A DNA stretch of 42,226 nt, from NCBI GenBank assembly GCA_022781925.1, contig JALESO010000047.1, positions 1-42,226 of the forward strand, written 5' to 3'. Shown here piece by piece: positions 11,682 to 38,071 of the stretch (its first letter is position 1; every line of letters starts with the position of its first letter). The translations under genes and the position numbers were made by a program. The notes under the pieces were generated by a model, which was given only the letters and a program-made list of their open reading frames with translations, did not search any database and was not told the DNA's origin. Origin of the DNA: Lachnospiraceae bacterium (lineage in GTDB: Bacteria > Bacillota > Clostridia > Lachnospirales > Lachnospiraceae).

Positions 11682-11836
11682 ACTTTGTTGAGATTGTGAA
11701 AGAATTGTGAATTATGAATCGTTTTCGCTCCTGTAGCAATACTATGATTTGAATGGGAGTGATGTTCTTCATAATGATACAGATAATTGTTTCCTTCCTC
11801 TTTCTATTTACCCGAGTAAATTATCATTTTAATTTA

Positions 11837-12928: not shown

Positions 12929-12992
12929 CGTATCTGTCCTCGTCTTCTTGTATTTCTTTTGATTTTATACTACCTCTTCCTAAAATGTAAAC

Positions 12993-13022
12993 AGGGATAC
13001 CTGTTTTTTGACAGATATCCCT
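12993..13022 (-). terminator. Terminator at the end of operon B
   Basis: AGGGATA-CTG / CAG-TATCCCT hairpin (12993-13003 with 13012-13022), followed on the minus strand by a T-containing but interrupted tail. It lies 65 bp after the hydrogenase stop codon and is the likely end of the 18194-13087 operon. Confidence 0.55.
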
Positions 13023-13086
13023 TATACAACCCTTTATTTTCTATTCATCCAGTATCTTTCCTTATTGGAACAAAGCGCACACTCTG

Positions 13087-14835
13087 CTATCTCATCTGAT
13101 AGCTTGTATGTAATAATTCATGTGCTTTTTCTGATCCCGGTTCACCCAAGAATGATTCATAAACTTCTTTCACTACCGGATTCTCATGAGATTTTCTGAT
13201 GGCACTACCTGCATCATTCCGGTATAACGCAGCGCCACGCATTTTCGGCACATCATTCAGCACTCTGGTTGCAGCATTCTGATGCGGCTGTCCGCCACCG
13301 TTTACACAGCCACCCGGGCAGGCCATTACTTCCACAAACTGATAATCTGCTGTACCATTTTTGATAGCTGTCAGCAGCTGGTTTGCATTTGCCAGACCGG
13401 ATACAACAGCTACTTTTACAGTTGTTCCATTTACGTCCACGGATGCCTCTTTGATTCCATTCATGCCACGCACATCTGTATATTCTAAAACAGTATCTTT
13501 TCCTGTCAGTTTTTCCACTGCAGTTCTCAGTGCTGCTTCCATAACACCACCGGTGACACCAAAGATAACAGCCGCTCCGGTACCAAATCCCAGCGGAAGA
13601 TCAAATTTCGCATTCGGGTTCATAGCCTCCAGCTGGATTTCTGCATCTTTCAGCATTTTGGCAAGCTCATTAGTGGTAATCACGATATCCACATCCGGAA
13701 CACCGGCTCCACACTCATCCTCACGGGTAATCTCAAATTTCTTTGCGGTACATGGCATTACAGATACCATAACGATGTTTTCTTTCGCAATATGCTCCTG
13801 ATTTGCCAGGTACGTTTTCACAATGGCACCCTGCATCTGATGCGGAGATTTGCAGGAGGAAATATTCTCCAGCATATCCGGATAAAAATGCTCGGCATAT
13901 TTGATCCAGCCCGGACAGCAGGATGTGATCAGCGGAAGTTCACCGTCATTATTCAGACGCTCGATCAGCTCGTTGGATTCTTCCATAATGGTCAGATCCG
14001 CACCAAATTTTGTATCAAATACTTTGTCAAATCCAAGACGGCGAAGTGCCTCAGCCATTCTGCCTTCTACATCTACACCGATTGGAAATTCGAATGCTTC
14101 ACCAAGTGCTGCTCTGACGGCCGGAGCCACCTGTACAACCACATATTTATCCGGATCTTCCAATGCCTCTTTTACCTGATCCATCTGTGTTTTTTCTGTC
14201 AATGCACCAACCGGGCAGACTGCCACACACTGACCACAGTTCACACAGCTTGCAGCTGCCAGTCCGGCCGGAGAAGCCGGTTCAATTTTTGCGTCCAGAC
14301 CGTCACCGGTACACGCAATAGCAGATACTGCCTGCATTTTTGCACAGACATTGATGCACCGTTTACATTTGATACATTTATTATTATCTCGAATTAATAC
14401 TTTGGAACTCAGATCCAGCTGCTCAAGGTTTGTCTTCGGCAGATCCGGCTCATCGGTAAATCCATATTCTTTCAACAGATCCTGCAATTCGCAGCTTGTG
14501 GAACGGAAACAGTACAGGCAGGATTTGTTATGTTTTTCCAGAATCTCTGCCAATGCTTTTTTTCTGGCTTCCATAATAGCCGGCGTGTGTGTCTGAATCT
14601 CCATTCCATCTTTGATTCTTGTCACAGATGCATTTACGATTTCACCATCCACCTCTGCGATACAGACACCGGACTGATCCACATCCTGCACACCTTTCAG
14701 ATAGTAAAGTGTTGGAATTGATTGCTGCATAAACTCACGCTGCATTTTTAATGTTTCAAAGGAAGCATCGAGAATGGTGATTCCTTTTTTCATGGTATAA
14801 TCATACCCATTGATTTTGATATTCACTGTACTCAC
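13087..14835 (-). CDS. hydA: [FeFe]-hydrogenase (monomeric, ferredoxin-type N terminus)
   Basis: Reversibly makes H2 from protons and low-potential electrons in the cytoplasm. The start is GTG 14835 with GGGGAGG 8 nt upstream; 582 residues. All three H-cluster motifs are intact: TSCCPGW (304-310), MPCTAKKFE (360-368) and EVMACPGGCVNGGGQP (502-517). Upstream are two [4Fe-4S] motifs, CIKCKRCINVC and CVNCGQCVAVCP, and a His-Cys3 cluster site (H102, C106, C109, C115). The N-terminal ferredoxin fold (residues 1-80) looks degenerate: three of the four expected [2Fe-2S] cysteines are Y44, S55 and S70, only C58 remains. It is the last gene of operon B, 15 bp after the flavoprotein, suggesting that the flavoprotein/ferredoxin pair and H2 share electrons. 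Confidence 0.93.
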   Translation of the reverse strand: MSTVNIKINGYDYTMKKGITILDASFETLKMQREFMQQSIPTLYYLKGVQDVDQSGVCIAEVDGEIVNASVTRIKDGMEIQTHTPAIMEARKKALAEILEKHNKSCLYCFRSTSCELQDLLKEYGFTDEPDLPKTNLEQLDLSSKVLIRDNNKCIKCKRCINVCAKMQAVSAIACTGDGLDAKIEPASPAGLAAASCVNCGQCVAVCPVGALTEKTQMDQVKEALEDPDKYVVVQVAPAVRAALGEAFEFPIGVDVEGRMAEALRRLGFDKVFDTKFGADLTIMEESNELIERLNNDGELPLITSCCPGWIKYAEHFYPDMLENISSCKSPHQMQGAIVKTYLANQEHIAKENIVMVSVMPCTAKKFEITREDECGAGVPDVDIVITTNELAKMLKDAEIQLEAMNPNAKFDLPLGFGTGAAVIFGVTGGVMEAALRTAVEKLTGKDTVLEYTDVRGMNGIKEASVDVNGTTVKVAVVSGLANANQLLTAIKNGTADYQFVEVMACPGGCVNGGGQPHQNAATRVLNDVPKMRGAALYRNDAGSAIRKSHENPVVKEVYESFLGEPGSEKAHELLHTSYQMR

Positions 14836-14850
14836 TCTTCGAACCTCCCC

Positions 14851-16623
14851 TTAACAGTTTGCATAAAATTCTGCTTCATCATATTCATCCGTATGTCCTT
14901 CCGGAATGATATAGCCCTGCGGACGCACCGGATATCTCCACATCGGAATATCTTCGGTAAATAATTCCATCTCACCATCTGCTCCCTGACGGATATTGAT
15001 CCATTTCAGCCAGTTCTGATTATCTGTCTGAGGATAGTCCGCGCGGTAATGCGGATACATGATACCACGGGTTTCTTTTCTCATTTCCGCAGAACGGAAG
15101 ATCATTTCCAGACAAAGGATCGTATCTGCTGCTTCCAGACATTTTGACAGAGAATGCGGATCATCAGCAGTCAGATGCGGTACGATTGCTTTCATCTTCT
15201 CGATATCAGCATACACTTTCCGAATCTCAGCCTCATCTTTCAGAATACATTTATGTACATCGAAAATATACGTCTCGATCATATCGTAAATCTCTTTGAA
15301 ATGATGGGTATCTTCTCTGTGTAATGGAGCATAAATTTTTTCTTTTAAAGCTGCCACCTGCTCCAGATCCAGTTCATCCCACTCTGCTTTTGCCGCATAT
15401 GGTGCAATGCTGTCGCCAGCCATCATACCAGTAGTGGAAGCATTTCCAAGTCCGTCACCGCGGGTCCAGCCAAAATATGCATTTCCCTGTGTGGTTACTT
15501 TTCCAGGTGCCCAAAGTCCTTCTACATCTGTTTTTATTTCTTTATCTACTTTGATCGGTTCCACCTGAATAACTGTCTTGATTGTAGTATCTACTACTTC
15601 GCCCATAACACCCAGATTTTCCTGTGTTTTACTGAATACCAGATGTTCCCATGCCATTTTGTCACGGAACATTCGCTGGGTAGACTCATCCATATCTGTT
15701 CCGCCGATCATCATGCGGACTTCATCCGGATGCGCCAGATCTACTGTCAGCGGACCATTTCCAGCCGCTACTTCTTTTACCATGGCGTCAACCAGTGCAG
15801 GTGTTACTTCCCACTCCTTATGACCGATATATTTATCTGTCAGGTTCTCACCATTTTTATTGCAGATCATGTTAAATCCACCATAAATCGGTGTATTTGT
15901 TTTCTTAAATACAACGTCTACCTGTGTAGAAAATTCTACGTTTCGCATTAATGCGCCAACACGGTACATAGCACCGACACCGGTTCCATATCCCATAAAT
16001 TCCAGACCGATTTTCTTAAAGTGACATCCCTGTGTTGCCATTGCCACTGCTTTTGCATGGAAGATCTTGCATTCCATATGATCCATATCAAAACCGATGG
16101 CTCCGATAACTTTTCCTTTTTTGTTGGTCAGAAGTTCAAAAATATTCACTCTGCTTAATAAACGAATGCCTAATTTCAATGCCATCTGACGCAACTGTGC
16201 ACATACATTGATGGAAACACCGCCCATATCCAGTGCATCCGGGATAAACGGAAGCGGAGTAGCTTCGCCCTCTTCATTACAAGATGTGATAACACCACAA
16301 TGTTTCATATAATCAATGTTATCTCTGTGATATACGAGATAATCTCTCAGGAACTCCTGGTCGTTTAAGAACGGGGTATGTGCATGCACCAGATATTCCA
16401 GTGCATTTTTTACACCATTCGGATGTTTGGATGTGGAACGGATTCCGTTTCCTGCTTTTGTAGCCTGTCCATTCCATCCGATAATACCTTTATCAATTAC
16501 AAGGATATCAAGTGTCGGGTCATTTTCCTTTGCACGGATGGCCGTTACAAGGCCTGCCATACCGCCGCCAACAACGAGTATATCCGAAGTATATAATTCA
16601 CCATAATCTTTGATATCTGCCAT
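14851..16623 (-). CDS. AprA/fumarate-reductase-like FAD oxidoreductase
   Basis: A 590-residue cytoplasmic flavoprotein of the succinate dehydrogenase/fumarate reductase/APS reductase alpha family. FAD binding is shown by ILVVGGGMAGLVTAIRA (about 15-31) and by GLWAPGKVTTQG plus TRGDGLGNASTTGMMAGDS in the C-terminal half of the FAD domain. The helical C-terminal domain carries EMIFRSAEMRKETRG..HYRADYP, typical of this family. There is no Tat or Sec signal. It starts 13 bp after the ferredoxin gene (16636), as AprA pairs with AprB. There are no sulfate-activation genes nearby, so APS reduction is unlikely. More likely it oxidises or reduces a C=C or C-OH/C=O bond in an imported acid, with electrons passing by ferredoxin to the hydrogenase. 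Substrate unknown. Confidence 0.82.
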   Translation of the reverse strand: MADIKDYGELYTSDILVVGGGMAGLVTAIRAKENDPTLDILVIDKGIIGWNGQATKAGNGIRSTSKHPNGVKNALEYLVHAHTPFLNDQEFLRDYLVYHRDNIDYMKHCGVITSCNEEGEATPLPFIPDALDMGGVSINVCAQLRQMALKLGIRLLSRVNIFELLTNKKGKVIGAIGFDMDHMECKIFHAKAVAMATQGCHFKKIGLEFMGYGTGVGAMYRVGALMRNVEFSTQVDVVFKKTNTPIYGGFNMICNKNGENLTDKYIGHKEWEVTPALVDAMVKEVAAGNGPLTVDLAHPDEVRMMIGGTDMDESTQRMFRDKMAWEHLVFSKTQENLGVMGEVVDTTIKTVIQVEPIKVDKEIKTDVEGLWAPGKVTTQGNAYFGWTRGDGLGNASTTGMMAGDSIAPYAAKAEWDELDLEQVAALKEKIYAPLHREDTHHFKEIYDMIETYIFDVHKCILKDEAEIRKVYADIEKMKAIVPHLTADDPHSLSKCLEAADTILCLEMIFRSAEMRKETRGIMYPHYRADYPQTDNQNWLKWINIRQGADGEMELFTEDIPMWRYPVRPQGYIIPEGHTDEYDEAEFYANC

Positions 16624-16635
16624 TATCTCTACCTC

Positions 16636-16917
16636 CTACTCGCCCTGCTTCTTCATCAGTTCCGCACTGTATTCCAACGGATCCACCTGAAGAGCGGAAA
16701 TAACCTGAATATCAATGACATTGTTCAGACAATCCATCTCACACTGATAACACAATACACATTCATCCGGATATTTCGGATAAGCATATTTTTTTTCTTC
16801 ATCCCACTGCCATACATTTTCCATACAACGGCGGATACATTTTTTACATCCACAGCAACGGTCTGTATCTATTACATAGCGGATACTCTGCTGCTGTCCC
16901 CTGTTCTCAACAATCAT
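16636..16917 (-). CDS. 2[4Fe-4S] ferredoxin, AprB-like partner of the flavoprotein
   Basis: A small iron-sulfur protein (93 residues from ATG 16917, which has GGAGG 7 nt upstream; the ATG at 16932 lacks a site). Two cluster motifs are visible, CCGCKKCIRRC and CVLCYQCEMDCLNN, the second without the usual Pro. A tail of about 25 residues may dock to the partner. The gene order transporter - ferredoxin - flavoprotein with gaps of 12-26 bp argues for a two-subunit enzyme in which this protein carries electrons between FAD and the cell's ferredoxin pool or HydA. Confidence 0.85.
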   Translation of the reverse strand: MIVENRGQQQSIRYVIDTDRCCGCKKCIRRCMENVWQWDEEKKYAYPKYPDECVLCYQCEMDCLNNVIDIQVISALQVDPLEYSAELMKKQGE

Positions 16918-16943
16918 TCGTTTTTCCTCCATTCTTCTGTTTC

Positions 16944-18194
16944 CTATCGTTTTCCGATAAATTTATCACTGGAAAGTACCATAAAGATCAATCCGATCAC
17001 CAGTACTACAATATCAAAGATATACATACCCATGATATTTGCAGCAAAGAATCCTGTCATCATAACACCGATACCAGCTCCGATTTCAAAAATTGTTCCA
17101 ATTACCTGATAACCTGCCGTATAATCCCAGCGTCCATATTTGCTGGCTACATAAGATGGCAGTAAATTACATAACGCACCCTGTGCAGCAAAAATAATAA
17201 CACCCGAAACCCAGCAGAATATCAGACCTTTTGGCATGCCGAGTAATGCCACAAATCCGATAATAATAAATACGAAATATGCCACAAATGCTTTTTTTGT
17301 TCCGATTTTCTGATCTATAATACCAAAGATAAAACTCCCGACAATTCCCATGATTCCTCCAACGGCGAAAATTGCAGATGCATGTGTATATGCGTATCCC
17401 ATGGCCAGCATTGCCGGAATTGCAGATGCAATATAACTCATAACAGCCATAAATGCGAGTGCTGATCCAAGACCGATAAACCATGTATTTTTATCTTTTA
17501 ATACTTTTCCAATTGTAAACGGACTCTTGTATTCTTTCATCATCTGTGCGATTTCAGCTCCGTTTACTGCATAGGTAGGATCTCCATCCGGATATTCTCC
17601 GGCTTCCTCCGGGTTATTTTTTACACATATTGCGGTAATAATTGCCACAATAATCAGAATCACTGCGATAACTGTCATTCCTCCGCCAAGACCAAGCTTG
17701 CCAAGCAGTTTCGGCATCATCGGTACATACAGGAAGTTCATTGCCACAATACCCATCGTTGTAAATCCAAGTACGATACCTTTCTTTGTCGGCCACCAGT
17801 TTGCTGTCAGTGTCATGCCACCGTTCTTCTCATAACCGCCGCCCAAGAATCCGATGATCAAAATGACAACCAGGAATAACGGTAAGCTCTTTGTCGTTCC
17901 AAATACGATCAGTAACAAAGCAGAAAGAATCAATGTCACTGTCGTAAGATTCTTAGCCCCTGTCTTTCTTACAACTCTTGCCAGAACCAATACACCGATT
18001 GCCTTTGCGATACAGGCTAAGCCGGATACTACGTTGATTACATTGACATCCCATCCTCTGATTTCTGAAAACATTGGGAATACCGTATTGTTATTTCCTC
18101 CGATAATACTTGTTCCGATCAGGAACAGGATTGCTGTGTAGATCATCATACCAATCTGTTTTGGACCGTGCCAACTGTGTTTTTTTGCTTCCAT
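16944..18194 (-). CDS. OFA-family MFS transporter (first gene of operon B)
   Basis: A 416-residue, about 12-helix major facilitator protein. The segment ANWWPTKKGIVLGFTTMG matches the loop signature of the oxalate:formate antiporter (OFA) family, whose members move small carboxylates. An inserted hydrophilic loop between helices 6 and 7 (NPEEAGEYPDGDP) is also typical. ATG 18194 has AGGAG 7 nt upstream. It is related to, but not a recent copy of, the transporter at 18440-19699. The promoter with the shared dyad lies at 18228-18305. The likely cargo is a carboxylic acid processed by the flavoprotein or its product. Confidence 0.87.
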   Translation of the reverse strand: MEAKKHSWHGPKQIGMMIYTAILFLIGTSIIGGNNNTVFPMFSEIRGWDVNVINVVSGLACIAKAIGVLVLARVVRKTGAKNLTTVTLILSALLLIVFGTTKSLPLFLVVILIIGFLGGGYEKNGGMTLTANWWPTKKGIVLGFTTMGIVAMNFLYVPMMPKLLGKLGLGGGMTVIAVILIIVAIITAICVKNNPEEAGEYPDGDPTYAVNGAEIAQMMKEYKSPFTIGKVLKDKNTWFIGLGSALAFMAVMSYIASAIPAMLAMGYAYTHASAIFAVGGIMGIVGSFIFGIIDQKIGTKKAFVAYFVFIIIGFVALLGMPKGLIFCWVSGVIIFAAQGALCNLLPSYVASKYGRWDYTAGYQVIGTIFEIGAGIGVMMTGFFAANIMGMYIFDIVVLVIGLIFMVLSSDKFIGKR

Positions 18195-18227
18195 ACCAAA
18201 TCTCCTTTTTCTTTTTTTGATACCTTT

Positions 18228-18305
18228 AGTATAGAGTTTTTTAACTGCCAGTATCTCATAGTATTCTGTTGAAAAAAATTGTCATTTTTCTACTCTAATA
18301 TAGAA
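18228..18305 (-). promoter_or_regulatory. Promoter and operator of operon B
   Basis: The dyad TTCTA-N8-TAGAA occupies 18288-18305. On the minus strand, exactly 54 bp separate its end from TATACT (18228-18233), the proposed -10. No good -35 is present, as expected for an activator-dependent promoter. The same dyad, with nearly the same surrounding bases and the same 54-bp distance, lies before operon A at 25465-25482. Confidence 0.65.
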
Positions 18306-18339
18306 AGGCTTTTCTGTATTCTCTTTTGAACTCGGAATA

Positions 18340-18373
18340 GAGAAAAACCGCCACTTTCGCGACGGTTTTTCTC
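18340..18373 (-). terminator. Terminator at the end of operon A
   Basis: Eleven-bp stem GAGAAAAACCG / CGGTTTTTCTC (18340-18350 with 18363-18373) with a 12-nt loop. It lies 67 bp after the stop codon of the transporter at 18440 and just before the operon B operator, so it separates the two operons. Confidence 0.8.
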
Positions 18374-18439
18374 TGACTTTAGGTATAGACTTGCAGAGAT
18401 GCACAAAAGAATATGTCATGCGCTGCATGACGTGCATCT

Positions 18440-19699
18440 CTATGCTTTCTTATATGGAATCAACATGATCAGTCCTGCTCCGATAATGTCTATTACAATA
18501 AATACAACATATGGCAGTGTAAAACTTCCTCCGGAAACTTTCAGTAGCATAGCCATCAGGATAAATGCCAGTGTACGCACAACGTTTGCCAGCGGGTAAA
18601 TGATACTGTTGGCAGACATAAACCCATCTCTTCCGAATACGGAAATGATCATAGAAGCCAGAAGGTTCAGAAGTCCTCCGATTCCAAGTCCGGCAAAAAT
18701 ACATCCAAGCCATACACATACAATGTTAAAGGATGTGATCAGCAATACCAGTGCAGCCACATAGGAAAATGCAAATACAATGGAAATGCTCTTTGTTCCG
18801 AATTTGGAATCGAGCCATCCCCAGAGATAACTTCCCGGAATTGCGATAATTGATGTAATGGACATAAATGTCAGTGCCTCGGCATTCGTATATCCCACAG
18901 ACATCATACGTGGTACAAACTGAGAAATAATTCCAACCAGTACCATCCATAAAAATCCATACCCAAAAACGATTAACCAGGTGTTTTTATTTTTCAGAAT
19001 GTTTCTGATGGAGTATTTTTCATTATCCACTACTACTTCCTGCGTAGAGACAGTTTCATCCAGTTCCATGTTGTCCGGAAGACAGTTTACATCCGCCGGC
19101 TCATTTTTTGCCCAGAAGAAAGTGACAATTCCTACGATAACTGCCAATACTCCAAAGATAACAAATGCTGTACGGATTCCTTTTGTTGCAAGCAATACAG
19201 CAAATCCGGCAACAAACGCACTGGAACTGATTGGTGCACCCATAGTCGCCCATCCAAGTGCAATTCCTTTTTTACGCGGAAACCAGTTTGCGATAAAAGC
19301 CGGACATGCTGCTGTACCGAATCCGGATGCAAAAAAGCAAATCAGCATCAGATCAATGGTATACAATGCCACCGACGGAACCATTCCGAGAAGTGCATAT
19401 AAAATACCGGTAATAATCAGTGTAACTGCAGACATATTTTTCGGTTTTGTCTTAATGACCAGACGACCGAATACAAATCCACCCACCAGACCTATGAGAC
19501 CTGCCGGTGTAGCCACTGAAAGTAACGTATTGGCATCCCAGCCGTGTGCCTCTGCAAATGCAGACGGGATCAGGTTCATACCATCCGTTGTAATTGCTGC
19601 GTAAAAGAAGTATAAGATCATTGTATAAAAGATCATACTCCATCCCCAGCCGCCAAAACGGTTATCTGTCAGGCTTTTTGATAATTTCTTTGTTTCCAT
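18440..19699 (-). CDS. OFA-family MFS transporter (last gene of operon A)
   Basis: A 419-residue, about 12-helix transporter. The OFA-type loop reads FIANWFPRKKGIALGWATMG, and the central hydrophilic insert carries NEPADVNCLPDN followed by an acidic stretch. ATG 19699 has AGGAG 7 nt upstream. It follows the thioesterase gene by 104 bp without an obvious terminator, so I place it in operon A. Two different OFA carriers under one regulator suggest separate substrate uptake and product export, or an exchange of both. Confidence 0.87.
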   Translation of the reverse strand: METKKLSKSLTDNRFGGWGWSMIFYTMILYFFYAAITTDGMNLIPSAFAEAHGWDANTLLSVATPAGLIGLVGGFVFGRLVIKTKPKNMSAVTLIITGILYALLGMVPSVALYTIDLMLICFFASGFGTAACPAFIANWFPRKKGIALGWATMGAPISSSAFVAGFAVLLATKGIRTAFVIFGVLAVIVGIVTFFWAKNEPADVNCLPDNMELDETVSTQEVVVDNEKYSIRNILKNKNTWLIVFGYGFLWMVLVGIISQFVPRMMSVGYTNAEALTFMSITSIIAIPGSYLWGWLDSKFGTKSISIVFAFSYVAALVLLITSFNIVCVWLGCIFAGLGIGGLLNLLASMIISVFGRDGFMSANSIIYPLANVVRTLAFILMAMLLKVSGGSFTLPYVVFIVIDIIGAGLIMLIPYKKA

Positions 19700-19803
19700 A
19701 GTTTCTCTCCTTCTTTTTTCGGCTTTTCAAATCTGCTCACAATTCTGTTGTTCACATACTGCGGACACATATGAAATCAACCGCTTTCCCTAATTACCTT
19801 GGA

Positions 19804-20559
19804 TTAAAATTCCATTTTAACCAGAAAAGAATCTTCTCCATTATGTATACCTCTTACATACATAACTTCATCTTCCCATGTATAACGTAATTTGGCAGTC
19901 TCTCCTTCACGCAATTCCTTTACATACTGTACCCAGATTGTTTTTGGTGTCTTCTCCGTATAAAAGTTACTATCCAACAGCTCTTCTACCCAGTCCAGAT
20001 ATTTTGAATTGTTTAAATGACCATTGTAATCGATTTCTTCTGTCGATACTGTCCGCTGCATCTGATTTCTGTAAACAGCCGGAAAACGCTGCTGCAATTT
20101 CGGAAGGTTCGGCTCTCCGCGAACAACAATCGGATTCAAAATTTTCATCTCTTCCGGCTGTGCAGCTACTGTTCTTGTATTCTGATCCATCAGTAAAAAC
20201 AGCGACGATGTCGCCATCAGTGGCTCTCCATCAGCTGTATACATTGCATAAATCCGTGAATACAGATTCACCTTGTTTTTGCCCGGCCAAATGCCCAGAA
20301 TCACCTGCTCCCCTTTCTCCGGTAAACGCAGCAGTTCAATATTCGTCCATGAAATCACCCAGCTTAATCCTTTGGCCAGCAACGCCTCCCCGGTAAGTCC
20401 TGCCTCCTGGTTAAAATGGCTTTCTGTAATGTGTTGCATCTGTCGTGCCAGAGCACCGATACTCATACGTCCGGTTTCATTGATCATATCTTCTGTAATT
20501 TCAAATGCAATCTGATAAACACCCTGCGGGCATTCTGTGGTAAAAAGTGGAACTCCCAT
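19804..20559 (-). CDS. Acyl-ACP thioesterase
   Basis: Double hot-dog thioesterase of the FatA/bacterial acyl-ACP type that frees a fatty or other acid from acyl carrier protein. ATG 20559 gives 251 residues and has GGGGAGG 8 nt upstream; a GTG 9 nt earlier is inside the site. The C-terminal hot-dog contains EIDYNGHLNNSKYLDW, matching the D-x-N-x-H-x-N-N-xx-Y catalytic region. Its partner carrier may be the two ACP-like domains encoded three genes upstream, rather than the general fatty acid ACP. Position: 86 bp after the butyrate kinase gene. Confidence 0.87.
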   Translation of the reverse strand: MGVPLFTTECPQGVYQIAFEITEDMINETGRMSIGALARQMQHITESHFNQEAGLTGEALLAKGLSWVISWTNIELLRLPEKGEQVILGIWPGKNKVNLYSRIYAMYTADGEPLMATSSLFLLMDQNTRTVAAQPEEMKILNPIVVRGEPNLPKLQQRFPAVYRNQMQRTVSTEEIDYNGHLNNSKYLDWVEELLDSNFYTEKTPKTIWVQYVKELREGETAKLRYTWEDEVMYVRGIHNGEDSFLVKMEF

Positions 20560-20645
20560 TTTGTTCACCTCCCCATAATCATTATTCTATAAATTTGTTA
20601 CTCACCGCTCATAAAGGCGGGACTCATCTCACATTTGATGTAAAT

Positions 20646-21755
20646 TTACTTGTCCCATGAAAAACCATCCCATACAGGTTTTCCGGTATAAGTCTTGGCT
20701 TCCTCCTCTCCCTTCAGGACACGGATTGCGCCAAATCCAAGTGCTTCTGTCTCGAAGCTTCCTGCATAGTTGTAAATTGGTGCGATCCAGGAAATATACT
20801 CTGCCAGTTTATCGCAAAGTTCCGTATCTCTTGCCATGCCACCTGTCAGAAGAATAGCATCTACTTTTCCTTTTAACGCACCTGCCATCATAGCTGTCCA
20901 TTTTCCCATGGAATAGATCATGGTATTGTATACAAGCTCCGCTTTTTTGTCACCATTTGCGATCATTGCTTTTACTTCGCGCAGGTCATCGGTGCCACAC
21001 CATGCAAGTAATCCACCTTTGCTGGAAGCATAATCTTTCGCTTCATCCGGTGAAATACCTTTTTTGATGCATTTGATGACATCATCAACACACAAGTCTC
21101 CGGAGCGATTCGGTGAGAGTGGTCCCTGACCGTCGCCTGCACGGTTTCCGTCAATCATTTTTCCTTTTTCGTGTGCAGTAATGCTGGTACCACCACCCAG
21201 ATGCAGGATGATATAATTGCAATCTTCATATTTTTTGCCCATCAGTTCACTGTGATGGATTGCCACCTGTTTCTGATTCAGCGGATGGGATTTTGCCGGA
21301 CGGTAAATCCCCGGTATACCAGTCACACGAGCCATGTCACAGAGTTCATCTGTCGGCATTGGATTTACAAAAAATGCCGGAATATTTAACTCCTGACCAA
21401 GTTTATAACTCATAATGATTCCAAGGCTGGCCGGATGGCGGATACCTCCTACATCATTTTTTGCATGTTCATAGGCAAGTTCATCAATTTTATATGTTCC
21501 TCCGGCACATGGATATAACCCGACGCCACGACCGGAAACAGCATCCAGATCAGAAAGGGCAATCCCTTCCTCCTCCAGTGCTTTGCGGATCATTGCCATA
21601 CGGATCGGTTCCTGATCTGCGAATGTTTTACACTCTGCAAAATCTTCTTTGTGATGATCTACCTCACGGTTTACAATCACTTTATCGCCTTTTACCACAC
21701 CCATTTTCGTACTGGATGAGCCTGGATTGATCGTTAATACAGTAAATTCTTTCAT
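20646..21755 (-). CDS. buk: Butyrate kinase
   Basis: ASKHA-fold kinase that converts acyl phosphate plus ADP into acid plus ATP, or the reverse to activate an acid. The start is ATG 21755 (369 residues) with AAGGAG 10 nt upstream; the ATG at 21764 would overlap the site. Motifs are LTINPGSSSTKMGV, GRGVGLYPCAGGTYKI, HPASLGIIMSYKL, LHLGGGTSITAHEKG, GDGQGPLSPNRSG and LTGGMARD. The pairing with the acyltransferase at 21856 is the classic Ptb-Buk arrangement. Here it sits in a thiolase/ACP operon rather than with butyryl-CoA synthesis genes, so the acyl group may not be butyryl. Confidence 0.94.
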   Translation of the reverse strand: MKEFTVLTINPGSSSTKMGVVKGDKVIVNREVDHHKEDFAECKTFADQEPIRMAMIRKALEEEGIALSDLDAVSGRGVGLYPCAGGTYKIDELAYEHAKNDVGGIRHPASLGIIMSYKLGQELNIPAFFVNPMPTDELCDMARVTGIPGIYRPAKSHPLNQKQVAIHHSELMGKKYEDCNYIILHLGGGTSITAHEKGKMIDGNRAGDGQGPLSPNRSGDLCVDDVIKCIKKGISPDEAKDYASSKGGLLAWCGTDDLREVKAMIANGDKKAELVYNTMIYSMGKWTAMMAGALKGKVDAILLTGGMARDTELCDKLAEYISWIAPIYNYAGSFETEALGFGAIRVLKGEEEAKTYTGKPVWDGFSWDK

Positions 21756-21855
21756 GAGTTGCATTCTCCTTTTCTGCTAATACTCCTATTTCAAACACCG
21801 GTTACTTCTCACAAATAATGAACCTCAATTTTCTACTTAAGATTGAGCGTTTTTC

Positions 21856-22863
21856 CTATTTTCCTGCCATAACTGCCAGCAATGCGATATTGTTATAAAG
21901 TTCCACATCTGTATCACTTCTGGAGCAGTCCAGAATCGGCAGACGGAATCCCTGATAAATTGGTCCATACACCTGCACATTATTTGCCAGACGCTGCACC
22001 AGTTTTGATCCGATATTGCATCCTGCTGCATCCGGGAAAATCAGTACATTAGCATGTCCTGCTACTGCACTTTCTCTTTTTACTTTTTTCTCTCCGACTC
22101 TCGCATCCACTGCTGCATCTGCCTGGAATTCTCCGTCAATTTTCAGGTCCGGTCTCAACTGCTGTGCCAGTGCAACAGCTTCACGCACTTTTTTTACAGG
22201 CTCACTTAATCCACCGGAACCATCGGTTGAGAAAGAAAGAAAGGCGCATTTTGCTTCGGTTCCAGTCAATGTCTCGAATGTCTCGCAGGAAGAAATTGCG
22301 ATTCCGGCATGCTGCTCAACTGTCGGCTGAATGCAGACTGCACCATCGGACATACCGATCAGATTTCCCTGATCTCCGGCAAATCCGTCAATCTCTTCAA
22401 TGAGAAGTCCGGAAGCTGTTGGACAGTTTGGCTGCATTCCGATGATACTTTTTGCTGCCAGTACAAACTCATATGTTGTTGTATCTACTCCGGCTAATGT
22501 TCCGTCTGCTTCTCCCACTGCCTGAAGCAAAGTTGCCAGATACAGTGGGTGATCGATTCTTTTCTTTACAAAACTTGTTGGCATAGCTTTATCCGGAGAA
22601 TTATTATATCTATCCAGTAATTCTTCTTTATAAACTGTATCATTCACATCTACCACACGGATTCCTGACACATCCACACCGGCTTTTCCGGCAGTTGCTG
22701 TTACATCTTCCGGATTTCCAACCAGAATGATATTTGCGATTCCGTCTGCTGTTGCTTTTGCTGCTGCTTTGATCATATATTCATTGGTTACTTCCGGAAT
22801 TGCAATGGTTTTTACATTTTTCTTTGCTTTATCATAAATAGAATTCATGAACTGAAATGCCAT
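21856..22863 (-). CDS. Phosphate acetyl/butyryltransferase family enzyme
   Basis: A 335-residue member of the PTA/PTB family that swaps CoA for phosphate on an acyl group. The middle and C terminus show VAGHANVLIFPDAAGCNIGSK-type residues (split: VAGHANVLIFPD, then GCNIGSKLVQRL), VYGPIYQGFRLP and the end SRSDTDVELYNNIALLAV. Length and centre are closer to phosphotransacetylase, while the C-terminal SRSD..LY segment recalls Ptb, so acyl preference cannot be read from sequence. ATG 22863 has AAGGAG. It lies between the ACP-fusion gene and buk with gaps of about 100 bp in one operon. Confidence 0.9.
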   Translation of the reverse strand: MAFQFMNSIYDKAKKNVKTIAIPEVTNEYMIKAAAKATADGIANIILVGNPEDVTATAGKAGVDVSGIRVVDVNDTVYKEELLDRYNNSPDKAMPTSFVKKRIDHPLYLATLLQAVGEADGTLAGVDTTTYEFVLAAKSIIGMQPNCPTASGLLIEEIDGFAGDQGNLIGMSDGAVCIQPTVEQHAGIAISSCETFETLTGTEAKCAFLSFSTDGSGGLSEPVKKVREAVALAQQLRPDLKIDGEFQADAAVDARVGEKKVKRESAVAGHANVLIFPDAAGCNIGSKLVQRLANNVQVYGPIYQGFRLPILDCSRSDTDVELYNNIALLAVMAGK

Positions 22864-22964
22864 TTTTACACTCTCCTTTTTTGAATTTGAAGAAAGTCAC
22901 CGTAGGATGCGGTAACTTTCTTCGGCTTTGGTTTAGGTATTAGATTTGGGTTTTGAAAATTTGC

Positions 22965-24035
22965 TTAAAGTCTTTCGCGTACCACAGATACAAAATCTCC
23001 AATCGTATTCAGGTTACTTGCTTCCTGAATTTCAATTGTTACATTCAGCTGATCCTCAATAGTGGAAATCATGACGATCATCTTCATGGATTCATTGGAT
23101 AAATCCTCTCGAATGTCGGTTGCCAGTGTAATGCCGGATGCATCTACACCGTAGGCATCTGCTGCTGCTTCGATAACAGTTTTTGCCACATCATCCAGTT
23201 CTTCGGATGACTGTGCTGCTGTCGCTGTAGCAGAATTATTTGCTGTCGGTGCATTCGAAGCAATTGTCTCTTCACCCAGACGTTCTTTTACTACATTTAC
23301 AAAATCAGCAATTGTATTCAGGTTACTTGCTTCCTGAATTTCAATTGTTACATTCAGCTGATCCTCAATGGTTGAGATCATGACGATCATCTTCATGGAT
23401 TCATTGGATAAATCCTCGCGGATATCTGTTGCAAGTGTAATAGATGCTACATCTACTCCATACGCATCTGCTGCCGCCTCAATAACGGTCTGTGTGGTTG
23501 CATCATTACTCAGATCTACCGCTGCAGTTGCTGTTGCAGTTTTTGTCTCTTCTTTCTTTGGTTCCGGTGCTTTAATTTCCGGAATCTTTTTAAATCCGTT
23601 ATCTTCCACCAGTTCCCAGGCTACAACTTTCATATCTTCATCCTGGAACAGTAACGGTTTTACTTCTACTTCATGCTCCTGAATATACTGATCAAATTCT
23701 TCGTATTTGTCATAATCTACATGCAGCAGACTTGCATTAAACGAATCCATACCAGGTACTTCAATCTCTACTGCAAAGTAATCTCCCTGTGTGTTACGGA
23801 ATTCCGGATCACCAAATGCACCTTTTGTCGGGAGTGCCTGCTTTACAATACCACGCATATTTGTCAGATCCACCCACTCGGTATCCAGACCTCCGCACTC
23901 GTTACAGCACAGATAAGGAGGAAACTCGATATGTCCGCATCTGGTACATTTTCTTCCCAGAATGGTTCCTTCTTCCAAAGCATCATAATAAGTTTTTACA
24001 ATTGGTTTTAAATCATATTTTGTCATTTTAACCAT
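22965..24035 (-). CDS. Zinc-ribbon/OB-fold (DUF35) protein fused to two ACP-like domains
   Basis: A 356-residue three-part protein. Residues 1-150 are a DUF35-type thiolase partner: rubredoxin-like zinc ribbon (C30-x2-C33 and C44-x2-C47) followed by an OB-fold ending in VVAWELVEDNGFKKI. A Lys/Glu/Pro/Ala/Thr linker leads to an ACP-like domain at about 178-253, a second linker, and an almost identical ACP-like domain at 281-356. The phosphopantetheine serine is conserved by alignment (S213 and S316), but the usual DSL is ESM in both. DUF35 proteins bridge acyl-CoA sites in SCP-x-like thiolase complexes; the partner thiolase ends 13 bp upstream. The tethered ACPs could receive or present the acyl chain and be emptied by the thioesterase. 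ATG 24035 has AGGAGG nearby; ATG 24026 is an alternative. I know of no described protein with this arrangement. Confidence 0.82.
   Translation of the reverse strand: MVKMTKYDLKPIVKTYYDALEEGTILGRKCTRCGHIEFPPYLCCNECGGLDTEWVDLTNMRGIVKQALPTKGAFGDPEFRNTQGDYFAVEIEVPGMDSFNASLLHVDYDKYEEFDQYIQEHEVEVKPLLFQDEDMKVVAWELVEDNGFKKIPEIKAPEPKKEETKTATATAAVDLSNDATTQTVIEAAADAYGVDVASITLATDIREDLSNESMKMIVMISTIEDQLNVTIEIQEASNLNTIADFVNVVKERLGEETIASNAPTANNSATATAAQSSEELDDVAKTVIEAAADAYGVDASGITLATDIREDLSNESMKMIVMISTIEDQLNVTIEIQEASNLNTIGDFVSVVRERL
22966..23492 (-). repeat. Internal tandem repeat encoding the two ACP domains
   Basis: Stretches 22966-23183 and 23275-23492 are near-identical at DNA level with a 309-bp (103-codon) offset. 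Runs of over 50 identical bases occur, including silent positions. This is a recent or gene-converted in-frame duplication. Confidence 0.85.
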
Positions 24036-24047
24036 CGTCCTCCTCTC

Positions 24048-25346
24048 CTACTTTCTCTCCATCATGATATTCAATACGTTCTGGCTTCCGCCAAATCCAC
24101 GGAGCATTGCGTGTTTTACATCATGATGAACCTGTGTTGCACCTGCATCTCCTCGCATCTGGTGAACTGCCTCATACACATCATGTAATCCAGAAGCACC
24201 TGCTGCATGACCATACTGGCAACGGCCACCGTTTGTATTGATCGGACGGTCTCCATCATAAGCAATACGGCCTTCTTTTGTATACTGCCAGCCTTCACCC
24301 TTCGGCAGATATTCACACATCTCGGCAGACAGGAATTCAGACTGATTGTAGAAATCATTTGCAAGGAAGATATCCATATCCGCACCTGTCAGTCCGGTCA
24401 GTTCTTTTACCTGACGATATGCATTCTGTGTTGCATACATCTCATTTCTCGGGTTTCCAGCCTCCACATTAGAATGACCGATACCAAGAATCTCAATCGG
24501 ATGATCGGTATATTTATAAGCCAGTTCTGTCGGGCATACAATAATTGCTGCTGCACCGTCACAACGCTGTTCAAAATGAGAACCTCTCATGTATTTTCCA
24601 ATTAATGGATTGAATTTGGAATGCAGATACTCATAAGCGGAATCCATACCATTTGCTGCTGCAAGTTCCTCATATGTATTATTGGTAATGGTACTCAGCG
24701 GATTTAATGCTGCTGCACGACGGCAGTTGACAGACAGATTTGTCATCATTGCATCGACATCCTCAGGGCTGATTCCATTCTCTTTCACGTAATAATCCAG
24801 CCATGATTCAGAGTTAAATGGCAGAGAACCACGGGTAAATAAGGTATAATCTCTGCACTGGGTAGAAGCCAGTACATCATGGAAAATCGCATCTGTACCG
24901 AAACGACGCTTTGTAACTACTCTGGTCGGATATGCGATGGAATACGGTGTCTCGATACAACCACTCAGAACCATGTCATACTCACCGGAAGCTACTAATG
25001 CAACCGCGGTCTCAACCCCCACATAACCGGTTGCACATGCTTCGCTGTGATGATAGGAGCCTTTTCCTTTCATTCCGATCCAGTTTGCCACATGCATGTT
25101 CGGTGTTGCCAGATTACTGGTCCAGCCCGGTCCGGCCTGTCCATGAATATAAAATTCCACATCACTGCCATCTACTCCGGCATCTTTCATAGCATCCCGC
25201 GCTGCATATGCAAAAAGCTCCTGCTCATTCATACCATCTACGGACGGATCATCCAAAATACGGACAAACGGAGTTGCACCCACGCCAATGATGGAAACGC
25301 TTCTTTTAAACGGTTTTAATTTCGGAAGATTATCATTAAAGCTCAT
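24048..25346 (-). CDS. SCP-x/archaeal-type thiolase family protein
   Basis: A 432-residue thiolase-superfamily enzyme, first gene of operon A. The nucleophilic Cys is C104 in SEACATGYVGVETA. The NDFYNQSEF segment aligns with the NEAF/HDxF loop, and NGGRCQYGHAAGASG holds the catalytic His. The C terminus (RGFGGSQNVLNIM) lacks the CxG second cysteine of biosynthetic thiolases, as in SCP-x-like and archaeal acetoacetyl-CoA thiolases, which work with DUF35 proteins like the next gene. It may split or form a C-C bond between two acyl thioesters, or C-acylate another acceptor as in PhlC. An acidic/aromatic insert around 200-280 is longer than I expect. ATG 25346 has AAGGAG 8 nt upstream. Confidence 0.85.
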   Translation of the reverse strand: MSFNDNLPKLKPFKRSVSIIGVGATPFVRILDDPSVDGMNEQELFAYAARDAMKDAGVDGSDVEFYIHGQAGPGWTSNLATPNMHVANWIGMKGKGSYHHSEACATGYVGVETAVALVASGEYDMVLSGCIETPYSIAYPTRVVTKRRFGTDAIFHDVLASTQCRDYTLFTRGSLPFNSESWLDYYVKENGISPEDVDAMMTNLSVNCRRAAALNPLSTITNNTYEELAAANGMDSAYEYLHSKFNPLIGKYMRGSHFEQRCDGAAAIIVCPTELAYKYTDHPIEILGIGHSNVEAGNPRNEMYATQNAYRQVKELTGLTGADMDIFLANDFYNQSEFLSAEMCEYLPKGEGWQYTKEGRIAYDGDRPINTNGGRCQYGHAAGASGLHDVYEAVHQMRGDAGATQVHHDVKHAMLRGFGGSQNVLNIMMERK

Positions 25347-25404
25347 TTTTCATTCTCCTTTTTATCAATTTTTACAGTTCACAATAACCATCTCTGCTGA
25401 TTAC

Positions 25405-25482
25405 ATTGTATAAAAAATATGTTTCACTTTTTTTGTATGATGTCTGCGAAATATACAAACATTTTTCTACACTAATATAGAA
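25405..25482 (-). promoter_or_regulatory. Promoter and operator of operon A
   Basis: TTCTA-N8-TAGAA dyad at 25465-25482, 54 bp before a minus-strand TACAAT (25405-25410), the proposed -10 for the thiolase operon. The context TTTTTCTAC-N-CTAATATAGAA is shared with the operon B operator at 18285-18305. The dyad is also 8 bp upstream of the -35 box of the divergent regulator gene. Confidence 0.65.
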
Positions 25483-25490
25483 TAAATGTT

Positions 25491-25519
25491 TTTACATTGC
25501 TTATTATTTCGTGTATAAT
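25491..25519 (+). promoter_or_regulatory. SigA-type promoter of the PucR-like regulator gene
   Basis: TTTACA (25491-25496), 17-bp spacer, TATAAT (25514-25519). It is a near-consensus promoter, about 20 nt before the ribosome site AGGAGG. The operator dyad ends 8 bp upstream of the -35, so a bound regulator could act on both directions. Confidence 0.8.
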
Positions 25520-25545
25520 AAACAACAGACAGAGGAGGAATGAAC

Positions 25546-27090
25546 ATGTACATAGGATTAAAACAAATTCAAAACCAACTGACGGATTACCCAACCCTGC
25601 TGACATCATCCGATGGCATACATGCACTGACCGGTTGGAGTAAACTTCAGGATGCCCCGCAACCACTGACTATCCATTTACTGTACACATGTGTCTATAC
25701 ACCGGAGCTGCTTTCTTATCCGTTTATCCCGGATATGCATCTTCTGTGTATTGTTCCTGATAATATCAATATGGATATGCTCAACCGCCGGTTCCCTGAT
25801 TTTGTAAGTATTTTATTTGTACAATGTAATCATCCGGAAGAACTCTATGCTCTCCTGCAAAATTATTACAACATCCAGTGCGGGGCCGGATATTACGGGG
25901 CCACACTGCTTGACTTTCTGGCTTTTGATGACGGGCTGCAGTCTGCGATTGATTATTCCTATCGGGTATTTGGAAATCCGGTTTTTGTATTTGATTCAAA
26001 TTACAATCTCATCGCAGCTCCATTTGAGAAACTGAAAGGTCAGAATTTCACGGATCGGACATTGGAAAAGAAAGGTTTTACGGATCAGGATTTCAAAATG
26101 GTCAGCCGCCAGAACAATATTCATGAACGTGTAAAACGCAGCGAAATACCACTCCGGGCTTTTAACAGCGAACTTGGTTATGAACAGCTCTACTGTTCCA
26201 TCAATACCAGTAAAGACCTCGGACACATCGTTGTGTCTGCTATTAATAAACCATTTGAACCAATCGATACAGAATTTCTGCTGACTTTGAAAAAATATAT
26301 CAATGAGCAGATTAAAAAAGATGCCTTTATCCAGAATGCCCGTGGATTTAATTATGAATATTTTATCCGGGATCTTCTGGATCACAAAGTGGCCGCAGAC
26401 CGGGCATCCATCACCCGAATGAATTATGTAAAAGATGATTTTAAGGGAAATAATTACTGTATTGTGATCGAGATTGCCAGAAGCCAGGAAACTATAAATG
26501 CCCGGCATGTCCGCAATATGCTGGAGAGCCGCATTCCATATCTGAAAACCATTATTTATAACGGACAGCTGATCGCCATTATCACGATTTCCAACAAACA
26601 ACTGTTGCCTCCGGAATATCTAAATGCCATGCAGAAGCTGTGTCAGGAAAATGGTCTGTATGCGGGCATGAGCAACTGTTTTCAGAATATTTTAAAAATC
26701 GAAGAATATTATAATCAGGCACTGCGCGCCATTGAACTTGGCATATGCAAAGATAATTCACCAAATCTGTTTGCTTACGAAAACTATTATCTGGAACACA
26801 TGATGAATGCGTTTACCTTAAACGAATCCAGCTGGACCTTCTGCCATCCGAAAATGCAGTTTCTGCTGGACTATGATAAAGAACATCATTCCGAGTTTGC
26901 CTATACACTGTACATGTATCTGACTCATGAACGAAACCTGGCTGCTACCTCAGAGGCCATGGATATGCACCGTACCTCTCTGGTCTATCGTTTCAAAAAA
27001 ATCAACAGCCTGATAGGGGAAGATTTTGACGACTATCGGGAGCGGATGTACCTGATTCTTTCGTATGAGATGAACCGTCCCACTGCATAA
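25546..27090 (+). CDS. PucR-family transcriptional regulator
   Basis: A 514-residue cytoplasmic regulator. I start at ATG 25546 because GAGGAGG is 7 nt upstream; the ATG at 25540 is almost inside the site. The N-terminal half resembles a GAF/PAS-like sensory region (residues about 130-260, for example FDSNYNLIAAPFEKLKG). A GGDEF-like CdaR middle part and the PucR C-terminal helix-turn-helix follow (LAATSEAMDMHRTSLVYRFKKI, split as LAATSEAMDMH and RTSLVYRFKKI, then FDDYRERMYLILSYE). Members usually activate catabolic genes when a substrate-derived ligand is present. It diverges from operon A, and both operons carry the same dyad, so it is the best candidate to bind it. Confidence 0.88.
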   Translation: MYIGLKQIQNQLTDYPTLLTSSDGIHALTGWSKLQDAPQPLTIHLLYTCVYTPELLSYPFIPDMHLLCIVPDNINMDMLNRRFPDFVSILFVQCNHPEELYALLQNYYNIQCGAGYYGATLLDFLAFDDGLQSAIDYSYRVFGNPVFVFDSNYNLIAAPFEKLKGQNFTDRTLEKKGFTDQDFKMVSRQNNIHERVKRSEIPLRAFNSELGYEQLYCSINTSKDLGHIVVSAINKPFEPIDTEFLLTLKKYINEQIKKDAFIQNARGFNYEYFIRDLLDHKVAADRASITRMNYVKDDFKGNNYCIVIEIARSQETINARHVRNMLESRIPYLKTIIYNGQLIAIITISNKQLLPPEYLNAMQKLCQENGLYAGMSNCFQNILKIEEYYNQALRAIELGICKDNSPNLFAYENYYLEHMMNAFTLNESSWTFCHPKMQFLLDYDKEHHSEFAYTLYMYLTHERNLAATSEAMDMHRTSLVYRFKKINSLIGEDFDDYRERMYLILSYEMNRPTA

Positions 27091-35332: not shown

Positions 35333-35497
35333 ATTACTCTCAACTCTTTTCTCTCTGATCCTGTATTTCTGCTTGAATTTCATTGCATTTGCAAACAGAA
35401 ATCGGAATCCGATTTATTTCTTTTTATATCCTGTCTTAAAAACCCCCAACATTTTCTCTCAACCTCTATAAAACTGAAGTTCATCTTTCCTCTGCTG

Positions 35498-35842
35498 TTA
35501 CAGTGCATCGACGCCTTCGTCACCGGTACGGACCCGGATGACATTGGTAATATCATATACAAAAATCTTGCCGTCTCCGATGTGTCCTGTATACAGTTCT
35601 TGTTTGATAAGTTCCACGATCTCATCTACTTTTGACTTTTCTACCACCAGTGCGATCTGCTGTTTCGGAAGAAGCTCCATCTCATAGTTTTCATCTACTT
35701 CATACTCTTTTGTTCCCTTTTCGATTCCACAACCAAGCACCTGGGTCACGGTCATGCCCCGCACACCGGCTTTGCTCAGTGCTGCTTTCAATCCGTTAAA
35801 TTTTGACATTCCTGTAATAATTTCAATTCTTGCTAAGTCCAT
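35498..35842 (-). CDS. P-II family signalling protein with variant T-loop
   Basis: A 114-residue P-II protein (start ATG 35842, with AAGG 9 nt upstream; ATG 35851 is too close). The fold is clear from GMTVTQVLGCGIEKG, ELLPKQQIALVV and the C-terminal TGHIGDGKIFVYDI..VIRVRTGDEGVDAL (split), which holds the B-loop nucleotide-binding residues. In the T-loop, the position of Tyr51 (uridylylation in GlnB) is Glu by ungapped alignment. The neighbour is an APC permease rather than AmtB. It may gate that permease or act on another target by binding ATP/ADP and 2-oxoglutarate. This is inference. Confidence 0.9.
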   Translation of the reverse strand: MDLARIEIITGMSKFNGLKAALSKAGVRGMTVTQVLGCGIEKGTKEYEVDENYEMELLPKQQIALVVEKSKVDEIVELIKQELYTGHIGDGKIFVYDITNVIRVRTGDEGVDAL

Positions 35843-35929
35843 GATCGTCATCCTTTCTGCCGTTCGCTTTACGTTATTCTTGTTTCTTTTTCTTCTTCCA
35901 TTGCTGGTTATCTTATACTTTTCTGCACC

Positions 35930-36769: not shown

Positions 36770-36790
36770 CGTATCAGCTCCTGAATCTTT

Positions 36791-37921: not shown

Positions 37922-38033
37922 CTGATTTTCTCCCTTCTGCTGTATTCAAAAATGCCCTCCAGACCATTTTCATGGAGAAACATTATGGTATATACATCCG
38001 GGAGCAACGCATCAGCTGTCCTTGTTACGGACG

Positions 38034-38039: not shown

Positions 38040-38071
38040 CCATATTTTCATTAAAATTTGTACGACATCCA

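Follow-up and report, generated by a model that had tools for sequence, protein, structure and literature searches.

The locus described here is a co-inherited acyl and redox gene set in a stretch of 42,226 bp (the window, our contig C16) from a Lachnospiraceae genome of 2.93 Mb (85 contigs, 91% complete). Ten minus-strand genes, running from 25346 down to 13087, were arranged in two operons and faced a divergent pucR gene (Table 1). Operon 1 carried, in this order, a thiolase (THL), a DUF35 protein fused to two acyl carrier protein (ACP) domains (DUF35-ACP-ACP), a phosphate acyltransferase (PTA), an acid kinase (BUK), a thioesterase (TE) and a carrier of the major facilitator superfamily (MFS1). 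Operon 2 followed with a second such carrier (MFS2), a ferredoxin (FDX), a flavoprotein (FLAV) and an [FeFe] hydrogenase (HYDA). Intergenic gaps were 12, 101, 91, 77 and 104 bp in operon 1 and 11, 12 and 15 bp in operon 2, while 245 bp separated the operons. All eleven genes were intact open reading frames (ORFs) with the boundaries and superfamilies given in an initial annotation of this DNA, and its layout of two operons with a divergent PucR-type regulator was confirmed in sequence.

Table 1. Features of the gene set along the window.
Feature	Position	Strand	Evidence
PucR-type regulator, divergent	25540..27090	+	PF13556, PF17853
Operator copy 1, between pucR and thl	25460..25481	-	shared 22-bp element
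THL, SCP-x/SCP2-type thiolase; proposed retro-Claisen C-C cleavage	24048..25346	-	PF22691 (8e-24)
DUF35 zinc ribbon (CxxC...CxxC from residue 30) with two ACP domains	22965..24035	-	PF12172, PF00550 twice
PTA, phosphate acyltransferase diverged from Pta and Ptb	21856..22863	-	PF01515 (3e-74)
BUK, butyrate-kinase-family acid kinase; proposed ATP-forming step	20646..21764	-	TIGR02707 (357.3 bits)
TE, acyl-ACP thioesterase, accessory	19804..20568	-	PF01643, PF20791
MFS1, monocarboxylate-type MFS	18440..19699	-	PF07690; SfMCT 84.9 bits (cut-off 320)
Terminator-like hairpins between operons	18431-18415 and 18363-18347	-	hairpin prediction from sequence
Operator copy 2, upstream of operon 2	18283..18304	-	shared 22-bp element
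MFS2, MFS carrier	16944..18194	-	PF07690; SfMCT 86.4 bits (cut-off 320)
FDX, ferredoxin with two 4Fe-4S motifs, AprB-like	16636..16932	-	profile matches, motifs
FLAV, AprA/FrdA-superfamily flavoprotein; proposed redox step on a polyphenol or its product	14851..16623	-	PF00890, PF02910
HYDA, [FeFe] hydrogenase group A with all three H-cluster motifs	13087..14835	-	TIGR02512 (510.8 bits)

The same 22-bp element, TCTATATTAG[T/A]GTAGAAAAATG, was found between pucR and thl and again upstream of operon 2. With up to three mismatches allowed, no further match occurred in the window, in 100 shuffles or in the rest of the 2.93-Mb genome (at its 91% completeness), so that the operator common to both operons that had been announced initially stood at these two promoters only. 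The element is most naturally read as a putative PucR operator.

By sequence and predicted fold (pLDDT 85.6), the nearest solved relatives of THL were an archaeal (P. furiosus) thiolase, the acetoacetyl-CoA thiolase of the HMGS/DUF35 complex, SCP2 thiolases and BbsB. PhlC-type subunits and DUF35-linked aldolases came after these, and the MucABC chains also matched by fold. Residues Cys104 and His380 were invariant in all 29 aligned homologues. The thl gene adjoined that of the zinc-ribbon protein, and DUF35 was present in 77 of 78 related loci (described below); its OB half went undetected by Pfam in the window protein and was seen, below cut-off, in one partner from the sister clade. The two ACP domains of the window protein shared 65 of 72 residues, and the phosphopantetheine serine was kept in all 89 ACP domains found (87 from 70 of the 78 loci and two from the window), no ACP domain being found in the other eight loci. 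Among fused relatives with ORFs over 200 aa, 14 had a single ACP and 15 had two, which indicates that ACP copy number changes often.

The proposed Pta/Ptb-type acyltransferase was retained as a member of PF01515 that leans towards Pta (TIGR00651, 211.6 bits against a cut-off of 311.2) rather than Ptb (TIGR02706, 57 against 410.5) and misses both cut-offs. BUK passed the butyrate kinase cut-off of TIGR02707 (289.1 bits). Both carriers were MFS transporters. Their assignment to OFA did not hold: they reached 50.7 and 43.6 bits with TIGR00890 (cut-off 374.85), and OFA models scored lower still than the L-lactate carrier SfMCT, which was the best NCBIfam model for both and itself remained below cut-off. 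Similarly, the flavoprotein earlier called AprA-like had an AprA/FrdA-like fold but lay far from the AprA cut-off (TIGR02061, 52.6 against 641.75 bits), and the curated Sdh and Frd models were missed as well. The nearest matches to its predicted fold (pLDDT 83.6) were PAPS/APS reductases, followed by fumarate reductase-like proteins, all at about 15-20% identity. Fumarate reduction by FLAV was set aside on account of this fold ranking and the missed Frd/Sdh cut-offs (active-site residues were compared only by eye).

HYDA exceeded the TIGR02512 cut-off of 405.95 bits, displayed the H-cluster motifs TSCCP, MPCTAKK and EVMACPGGC, and fell one bit short of the NADH-dependent A6 model NF040763 (764 against 765 bits); no HydB/HydC-type partner was found among the window ORFs scanned. 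The gene set holds no new fold. Among PHROGs, DUF35-ACP-ACP matched an ACP family and a second family without assigned function, and THL matched none. A plasmid origin was set aside, the 439 matches among 72,556 plasmid records all lying under 60% identity.

Homologues were gathered from 84,980 species genomes and yielded 78 loci, drawn from the best 80 of 156 relatives, for which reason distant relatives are under-sampled. Presence of a gene in a locus was scored from its best tblastn match above a fixed bit score. In a quick tree, the THL sequences of the 78 loci and the window fell into clade A (33 loci and the window) and its sister clade B (45 loci), each with an SH-aLRT value of 100 (no bootstrap). 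The operator core TCTAYA-N4-TRTAGA, an inverted repeat, occurred ten times in 550,354 bp of clade A loci (nine of the 33) and was absent from 720,652 bp of clade B loci. This pattern had been drawn up from the window together with its closest relatives and, being stricter than the 22-bp element, misses operator copy 2 of the window.

Twenty-one of the 33 clade A loci were at least 15 kb long. DUF35 and ACP were detected in all 21, PTA and FDX in 19, BUK, FLAV and HYDA in 18, PucR in 17, an MFS carrier in 16, TE in 11, a phosphopantetheinyl transferase in seven and a PhlG-type hydrolase in four; FLAV, HYDA, PTA and BUK were found jointly in 14. Gene order was shuffled while the set stayed together, as in L027, L029-L032 and L041, where HYDA directly preceded THL. 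TE was present in 17 of all 33 clade A loci, not found in the other 16 (some of which are cut short) and missing from all clade B loci. Clade B displayed DUF35 in 44 and ACP in 37 of its 45 loci and had no FLAV, FDX or HYDA above threshold; the weak FLAV-like proteins encountered there (24-27% identity) did not reach even E 1e-5 for FLAV itself. Genes for phosphopantetheinyl transferases were near seven of the 33 clade A and 11 of the 45 clade B loci.

At closer range, THL and DUF35-ACP-ACP were each found in six of 61 genomes, the same ones for both, and all six belonged to the window genus (20 genomes). The genes of the set were clustered there in differing orders and sometimes interrupted by contig ends. 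Genes of operons 1 and 2 co-occurred in related genomes besides sharing an operator, and other Pta/Buk-family genes stand elsewhere in the genome, so that the checks named in the initial annotation did not refute its idea. Carriers of clade A included Flavonifractor sp. An82, Pseudoflavonifractor and Slackia exigua, and those of clade B Catenibacillus scindens and Faecalicatena contorta. Slackia exigua, an actinomycetote, was nested in clade A with THL, DUF35-ACP, PTA, BUK, FDX, FLAV and HYDA, which suggests transfer between phyla.

Positions 11800-27000 of the window displayed a mosaic nucleotide identity to the corresponding locus of Eubacterium ramulus 21 (L014): 98.5-100% over FLAV/FDX (15.0-17.0 kb), 97.8-99.5% over ACP/THL (23.0-24.6 kb), 75% over TE and 79.5-85% over pucR, the alignment breaking down left of a DUF3878 gene. 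Recent exchange of operon parts between species is therefore likely. In the congener G007 (L018:8333-8689 and L034:6463-6820, on one contig), FLAV ended after about 22 residues and continued in frame with the final quarter of MFS2, a structure that would fit a deletion of FLAV, HYDA and most of MFS2; FDX, PTA, BUK, TE, THL and DUF35-ACP remained, and an assembly error is possible. Downstream of this copy (L018:16075-20000 and L019), ORF starts resembled those of NifH/ChlL-type ATPases and nitrogenase-like subunits.

The neighbourhood of these loci points to a link to polyphenols that the initial annotation did not make. The nearest named THL among the matches listed was that of E. ramulus strain 21 (99% identical), and the host, a gut bacterium, is closely related to this flavonoid degrader, the window species being a congener. 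PF18089, the family of DAPG and phloretin hydrolases, was found in 19 of the 20 genomes of the genus and in none of the 41 others; the window genome had six matches, of which two were weak. Genes for PhlG-type hydrolases lay in five of the 33 clade A loci (four distinct genes, since L037 and L046 show the same one). In L028, from a congener, the PF18089 gene was inside the locus and had phloretin hydrolase 5xe5 as its best PDB match; in L053, TE, the PhlG-type hydrolase, THL, DUF35-ACP, PTA and BUK were contiguous. Seventeen of the 30 FLAV relatives in the 61 genomes were within 3 kb of a PF18089 match, against 0.4 expected by random placement (the 70 stronger of 107 PF18089 rows were used), and four of the 30 were within 10 kb of THL.

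A wider survey covered 250 genomes of the family, drawn evenly over 249 genera, with thresholds of E 1e-60 for THL and E 1e-20 for PF18089. THL was present in eight, PF18089 in 12 and both in four (one-sided Fisher p 2e-4, a value that ignores shared ancestry among genera); after removal of the window genome, PF18089 was still present in three of seven THL carriers (p 0.002). Clade B loci carried reductase homologues, namely flavone reductase (FLR, nine of 45), OYE (nine) and an FMN_bind-FAD reductase (12), at least one of these types being found in 25 loci. C-glycoside deglycosidase (CGD) was encountered in five clade B loci and one clade A locus, and OYE in four of the 33 clade A loci. These reductase families were named from single examples, FLR from the match of L102 to PDB 7d38, the entry identified as FLR in PMC7862272; a reductase of Streptococcus ovis was nearest to a vinyl phenol reductase model, below cut-off. 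The neighbours point to polyphenol catabolism and away from butyrate or fatty acid metabolism.

Expansion of PhlG-type genes was seen throughout the genus, with up to 12 matches per genome (for example at G000:C5, C74 and C77). Many of them stood in a recurring block with a FabK-like flavoprotein of the enoyl-reductase/NMO type, a ferredoxin and a FLAV paralogue. URO-D/MtaA-like proteins were found beside nine of the 33 clade A loci and none of the 45 clade B loci (for example L028:13549-14577 and L046:5829-6854), with models below cut-off; corrinoid-linked O-demethylation of methoxylated phenols is a possible role.

Compared with known systems, the set is placed among the thiolase/DUF35 retro-Claisen enzymes, from which it stands out by its carrier (ACP), its energy coupling and its dedicated hydrogenase, all three of them unusual. 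It resembles PhlABC (PpATase) in having a thiolase-fold subunit with a nucleophilic Cys and a zinc-ribbon DUF35 partner. According to PMC6392133, the Cys of PhlC, within the three-subunit complex, takes the acetyl group of acetylphloroglucinol, reversibly and without CoA. The window set differs from PhlABC in that its DUF35 partner carries ACPs, PTA and BUK provide a coupling, THL is nearer CoA thiolases, and no HMGS/KASIII-like PhlA subunit was found among its ten ORFs or the 20 other window ORFs scanned with Pfam. The benzoylsuccinyl-CoA thiolase BbsAB, in which BbsA is the DUF35 partner, and the archaeal acetoacetyl-CoA thiolase share the thiolase and DUF35 pair, with clear similarity of the thiolase in sequence and fold; they act on CoA esters, whereas the window set has no CoA ligase or CoA-transferase and bears two ACPs fused to DUF35.

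Phloretin hydrolase and PhlG share the genomic neighbourhood and, presumably, the class of retro-Claisen bond, but they belong to another protein family and act by hydrolysis, with neither thioester nor ATP. In the TAL route of phloroglucinol degradation, as outlined in PMC10470551, a retro-Claisen cleavage likewise feeds a phosphotransacylase and a kinase; the cleaving enzyme there is a BKACE, and BKACE genes of the window genome were located elsewhere (C45 and C57). APS/PAPS and fumarate reductase flavoproteins are alike in the fold of FLAV and in the AprB-like FDX, and differ by their low identity and the missed cut-offs. Among the titles and abstract beginnings listed from the open-licence literature of PubMed Central, a collection that leaves subscription journals mostly outside, none described the present gene set.

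Our tentative reading, which we hold at somewhat less than even confidence, is that the set is a dedicated module of gut polyphenol degraders, moving horizontally, in which a thiolase/ACP system cleaves a polyphenol-derived C-C bond and recovers ATP. Its direction, the order of steps, the acceptor (ACP rather than CoA) and the substrate are what we infer as follows. A polyphenol-derived substrate would be imported by one MFS carrier, and FLAV with FDX would carry out a single redox step in which HYDA links the exchange of electrons to H2; this step would most likely be an H2-driven reduction of a C=C bond or enone, comparable to what flavin ene-reductases could do beside some sister-clade thiolases. 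The product would contain a 1,3-dicarbonyl or acyl-phenol C-C bond, and Cys104 of THL would attack its carbonyl in a retro-Claisen reaction that frees the aromatic or enolate half. The bond cut could be the acyl-aryl bond of a dihydrochalcone-like ketone, or belong to a 1,3-dione from a reduced ring. The acyl group would be handed to the phosphopantetheine arm of DUF35-ACP-ACP (or to CoA), converted by PTA from acyl-thioester to acyl phosphate, and released by BUK as a free aryl-alkyl acid with formation of ATP. The second carrier would export this acid and TE would remove stuck acyl-ACP, so that bond energy lost by phloretin hydrolase would be kept as ATP. The boldest form of this reading, a second, thioclastic cleavage of acyl-phenols or ring-derived 1,3-diones, leading from the thiolase over the ACP arm to ATP by PTA/BUK, with FLAV-FDX-HYDA tying a prior reduction to H2, is possible and on the doubtful side.

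Enzymes of the PTA and BUK types interconvert thioester, acyl phosphate and acid with ATP. The window pair looks dedicated, since Pta (C40), AckA (C64), a cluster of BKACE with PTA-family and kinase-family genes (C45) and a further kinase-family gene (C9) stand elsewhere in the genome. Catabolism is favoured because PTA and BUK, unlike TE, are near-universal in clade A, because the loci share polyphenol-catabolic genes, and because the window is without a PhlA-like subunit or synthase. The single co-regulated, co-inherited acyl/redox system of the initial annotation is supported. Its scheme of an imported acid activated by BUK and a product freed by TE is less favoured: the dispensability of TE (11 of 21 long clade A loci, none in clade B) against 19 and 18 of 21 for PTA and BUK, together with the polyphenol-breakdown neighbourhood, speaks for the energy recovery that it had offered in brackets.

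Several observations weigh against the cleavage reading. In both sequence and fold, THL is closer to CoA thiolases than to PhlC, and PTA is homologous to CoA-using enzymes, its acceptance of ACP being putative. PTA and BUK were each found in a minority (21) of the 45 clade B loci, and 20 of the 45 showed none of the three reductase types. FLAV was missing from three of the 21 long clade A loci; it was over 45% identical to that of the window in 14 of the 18 carrying it and 30-31% identical in four, so that a paralogous flavoprotein fills its place in some loci. The FLAV relatives near PhlG genes were likewise mostly about 30% identical to FLAV and for this reason may perform another reaction. 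FDX-FLAV-HYDA occurred without THL beside a CocE-type hydrolase at G003:C23 and G000:C5 (a CocE/S15-type hydrolase accompanied them also at G013:C18; the CocE model was tested on G003:C23 only). The phosphopantetheinyl transferase neighbours may reflect chance or housekeeping.

Further points on the same side concern the polyphenol link and the counts themselves. PF18089 was present in one of five clade-B-like THL carriers, one of them only 41% identical (p about 0.2). Genes of the phloretin hydrolase type are thus well linked to clade A, and their link to clade B is unproven. A PhlG-type hydrolase and the thiolase shared a locus in five cases and are thus not simple alternatives, which suggests two successive cleavages or two substrates and weakens a plain swap of phloretin hydrolase for the thiolase. 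Finally, the locus counts are not independent: L028/L036, L037/L046 (overlapping) and L035/L057 share a genome or contig, and L030-L032 have identical THL.

The shared loci of hydrolase and thiolase also agree with ring fission in place of side-chain cleavage. Here FLAV, fed by H2 and ferredoxin, would reduce the ring of a substituted phloroglucinol or resorcinol. The resulting 1,3-dione would be opened by THL or by a hydrolase of the PhlG or CocE type, and THL would then cut the open-chain diketo acid, giving an aryl-alkyl-acyl thioester from which PTA and BUK make ATP. Such a path parallels the PGR-DPGC-TAL route and could explain the loss of the A-ring from flavan-3-ols, a reaction of Flavonifractor; CocE- or PhlG-type hydrolases beside FDX-FLAV and an electron input linked to H2 are consistent with it. 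We nevertheless consider it unlikely, as the window set itself is without a hydrolase, no precedent was found for ring reduction by a FLAV-type protein, and BKACE genes are already present in the genome.

That operon 1 handles acyl thioesters and operon 2 is an unrelated flavoprotein-hydrogenase unit merely under the same regulator would accord with operon 2 genes lacking THL in G003 and at G000:C5 and with clade B thiolase loci lacking FDX, FLAV and HYDA. An operator common to both operons and found nowhere else in the genome, a set kept together despite its shuffled order, and FLAV in 18 of 21 long clade A loci make such independence quite improbable. Somewhat more doubtful still is the opposite direction, in which BUK and PTA spend ATP to activate acid brought into the cell, C-acylation of an acceptor takes place on ACP through the thiolase complex, as in PhlABC or MucABC, and TE frees a product of detoxification or biosynthesis. 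The chemistry is reversible, the scheme is that of the initial annotation, the THL fold resembles PhlC and MucABC chains, and TE occurs in 17 clade A loci; against this, the set has no HMGS/KASIII-like third subunit, TE was not found in the other clade A loci (some cut short) nor in clade B, and some of these loci carry catabolic PhlG, CGD or FLR homologues. Ordinary butyrate, lactate or fatty acid metabolism, to which the BUK equivalog score and the lactate-type carriers (below cut-off) might point, is very improbable, as had been argued initially, given separate Pta, AckA and further Pta/Buk-family genes elsewhere in the genome, the polyphenol neighbourhood, the patchy distribution of THL (six of 61 relatives and eight of 250 in the family) and the absence of Crt, Hbd, Bcd, CoA-transferase and fatty acid synthase among 30 Pfam-scanned window ORFs.

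If the ATP-recovering cleavage holds, anaerobic polyphenol metabolism would gain a C-C cleavage that conserves energy, in contrast to the known cleaving enzyme, which does no more than hydrolyse, and flavonoid breakdown would itself give energy and consume H2. In our judgement, it would be unusual both for a catabolic thiolase to use an ACP arm as acceptor and for a polyphenol operon to have a hydrogenase of its own, and both features would bear on the H2 economy of gut and rumen. The set would also offer candidate genes for cleavage steps described as lacking a known enzyme, such as that of alphitonin (PMC12203004). E. ramulus 21, Flavonifractor sp. An82 and Slackia exigua ATCC 700122, carriers that are not metagenome bins, make the set directly testable.

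Elsewhere in the window, the RNA elements were four tRNAs only. Positions 33923-41255 held an apparent catabolic cluster with an amino acid permease, an AraC regulator, an ornithine-cyclodeaminase-like gene and a three-part FAD/Fe-S amine dehydrogenase, the parts of which were DAO, BFD/SO_alpha_A3 and Pyr_redox with Fer4.

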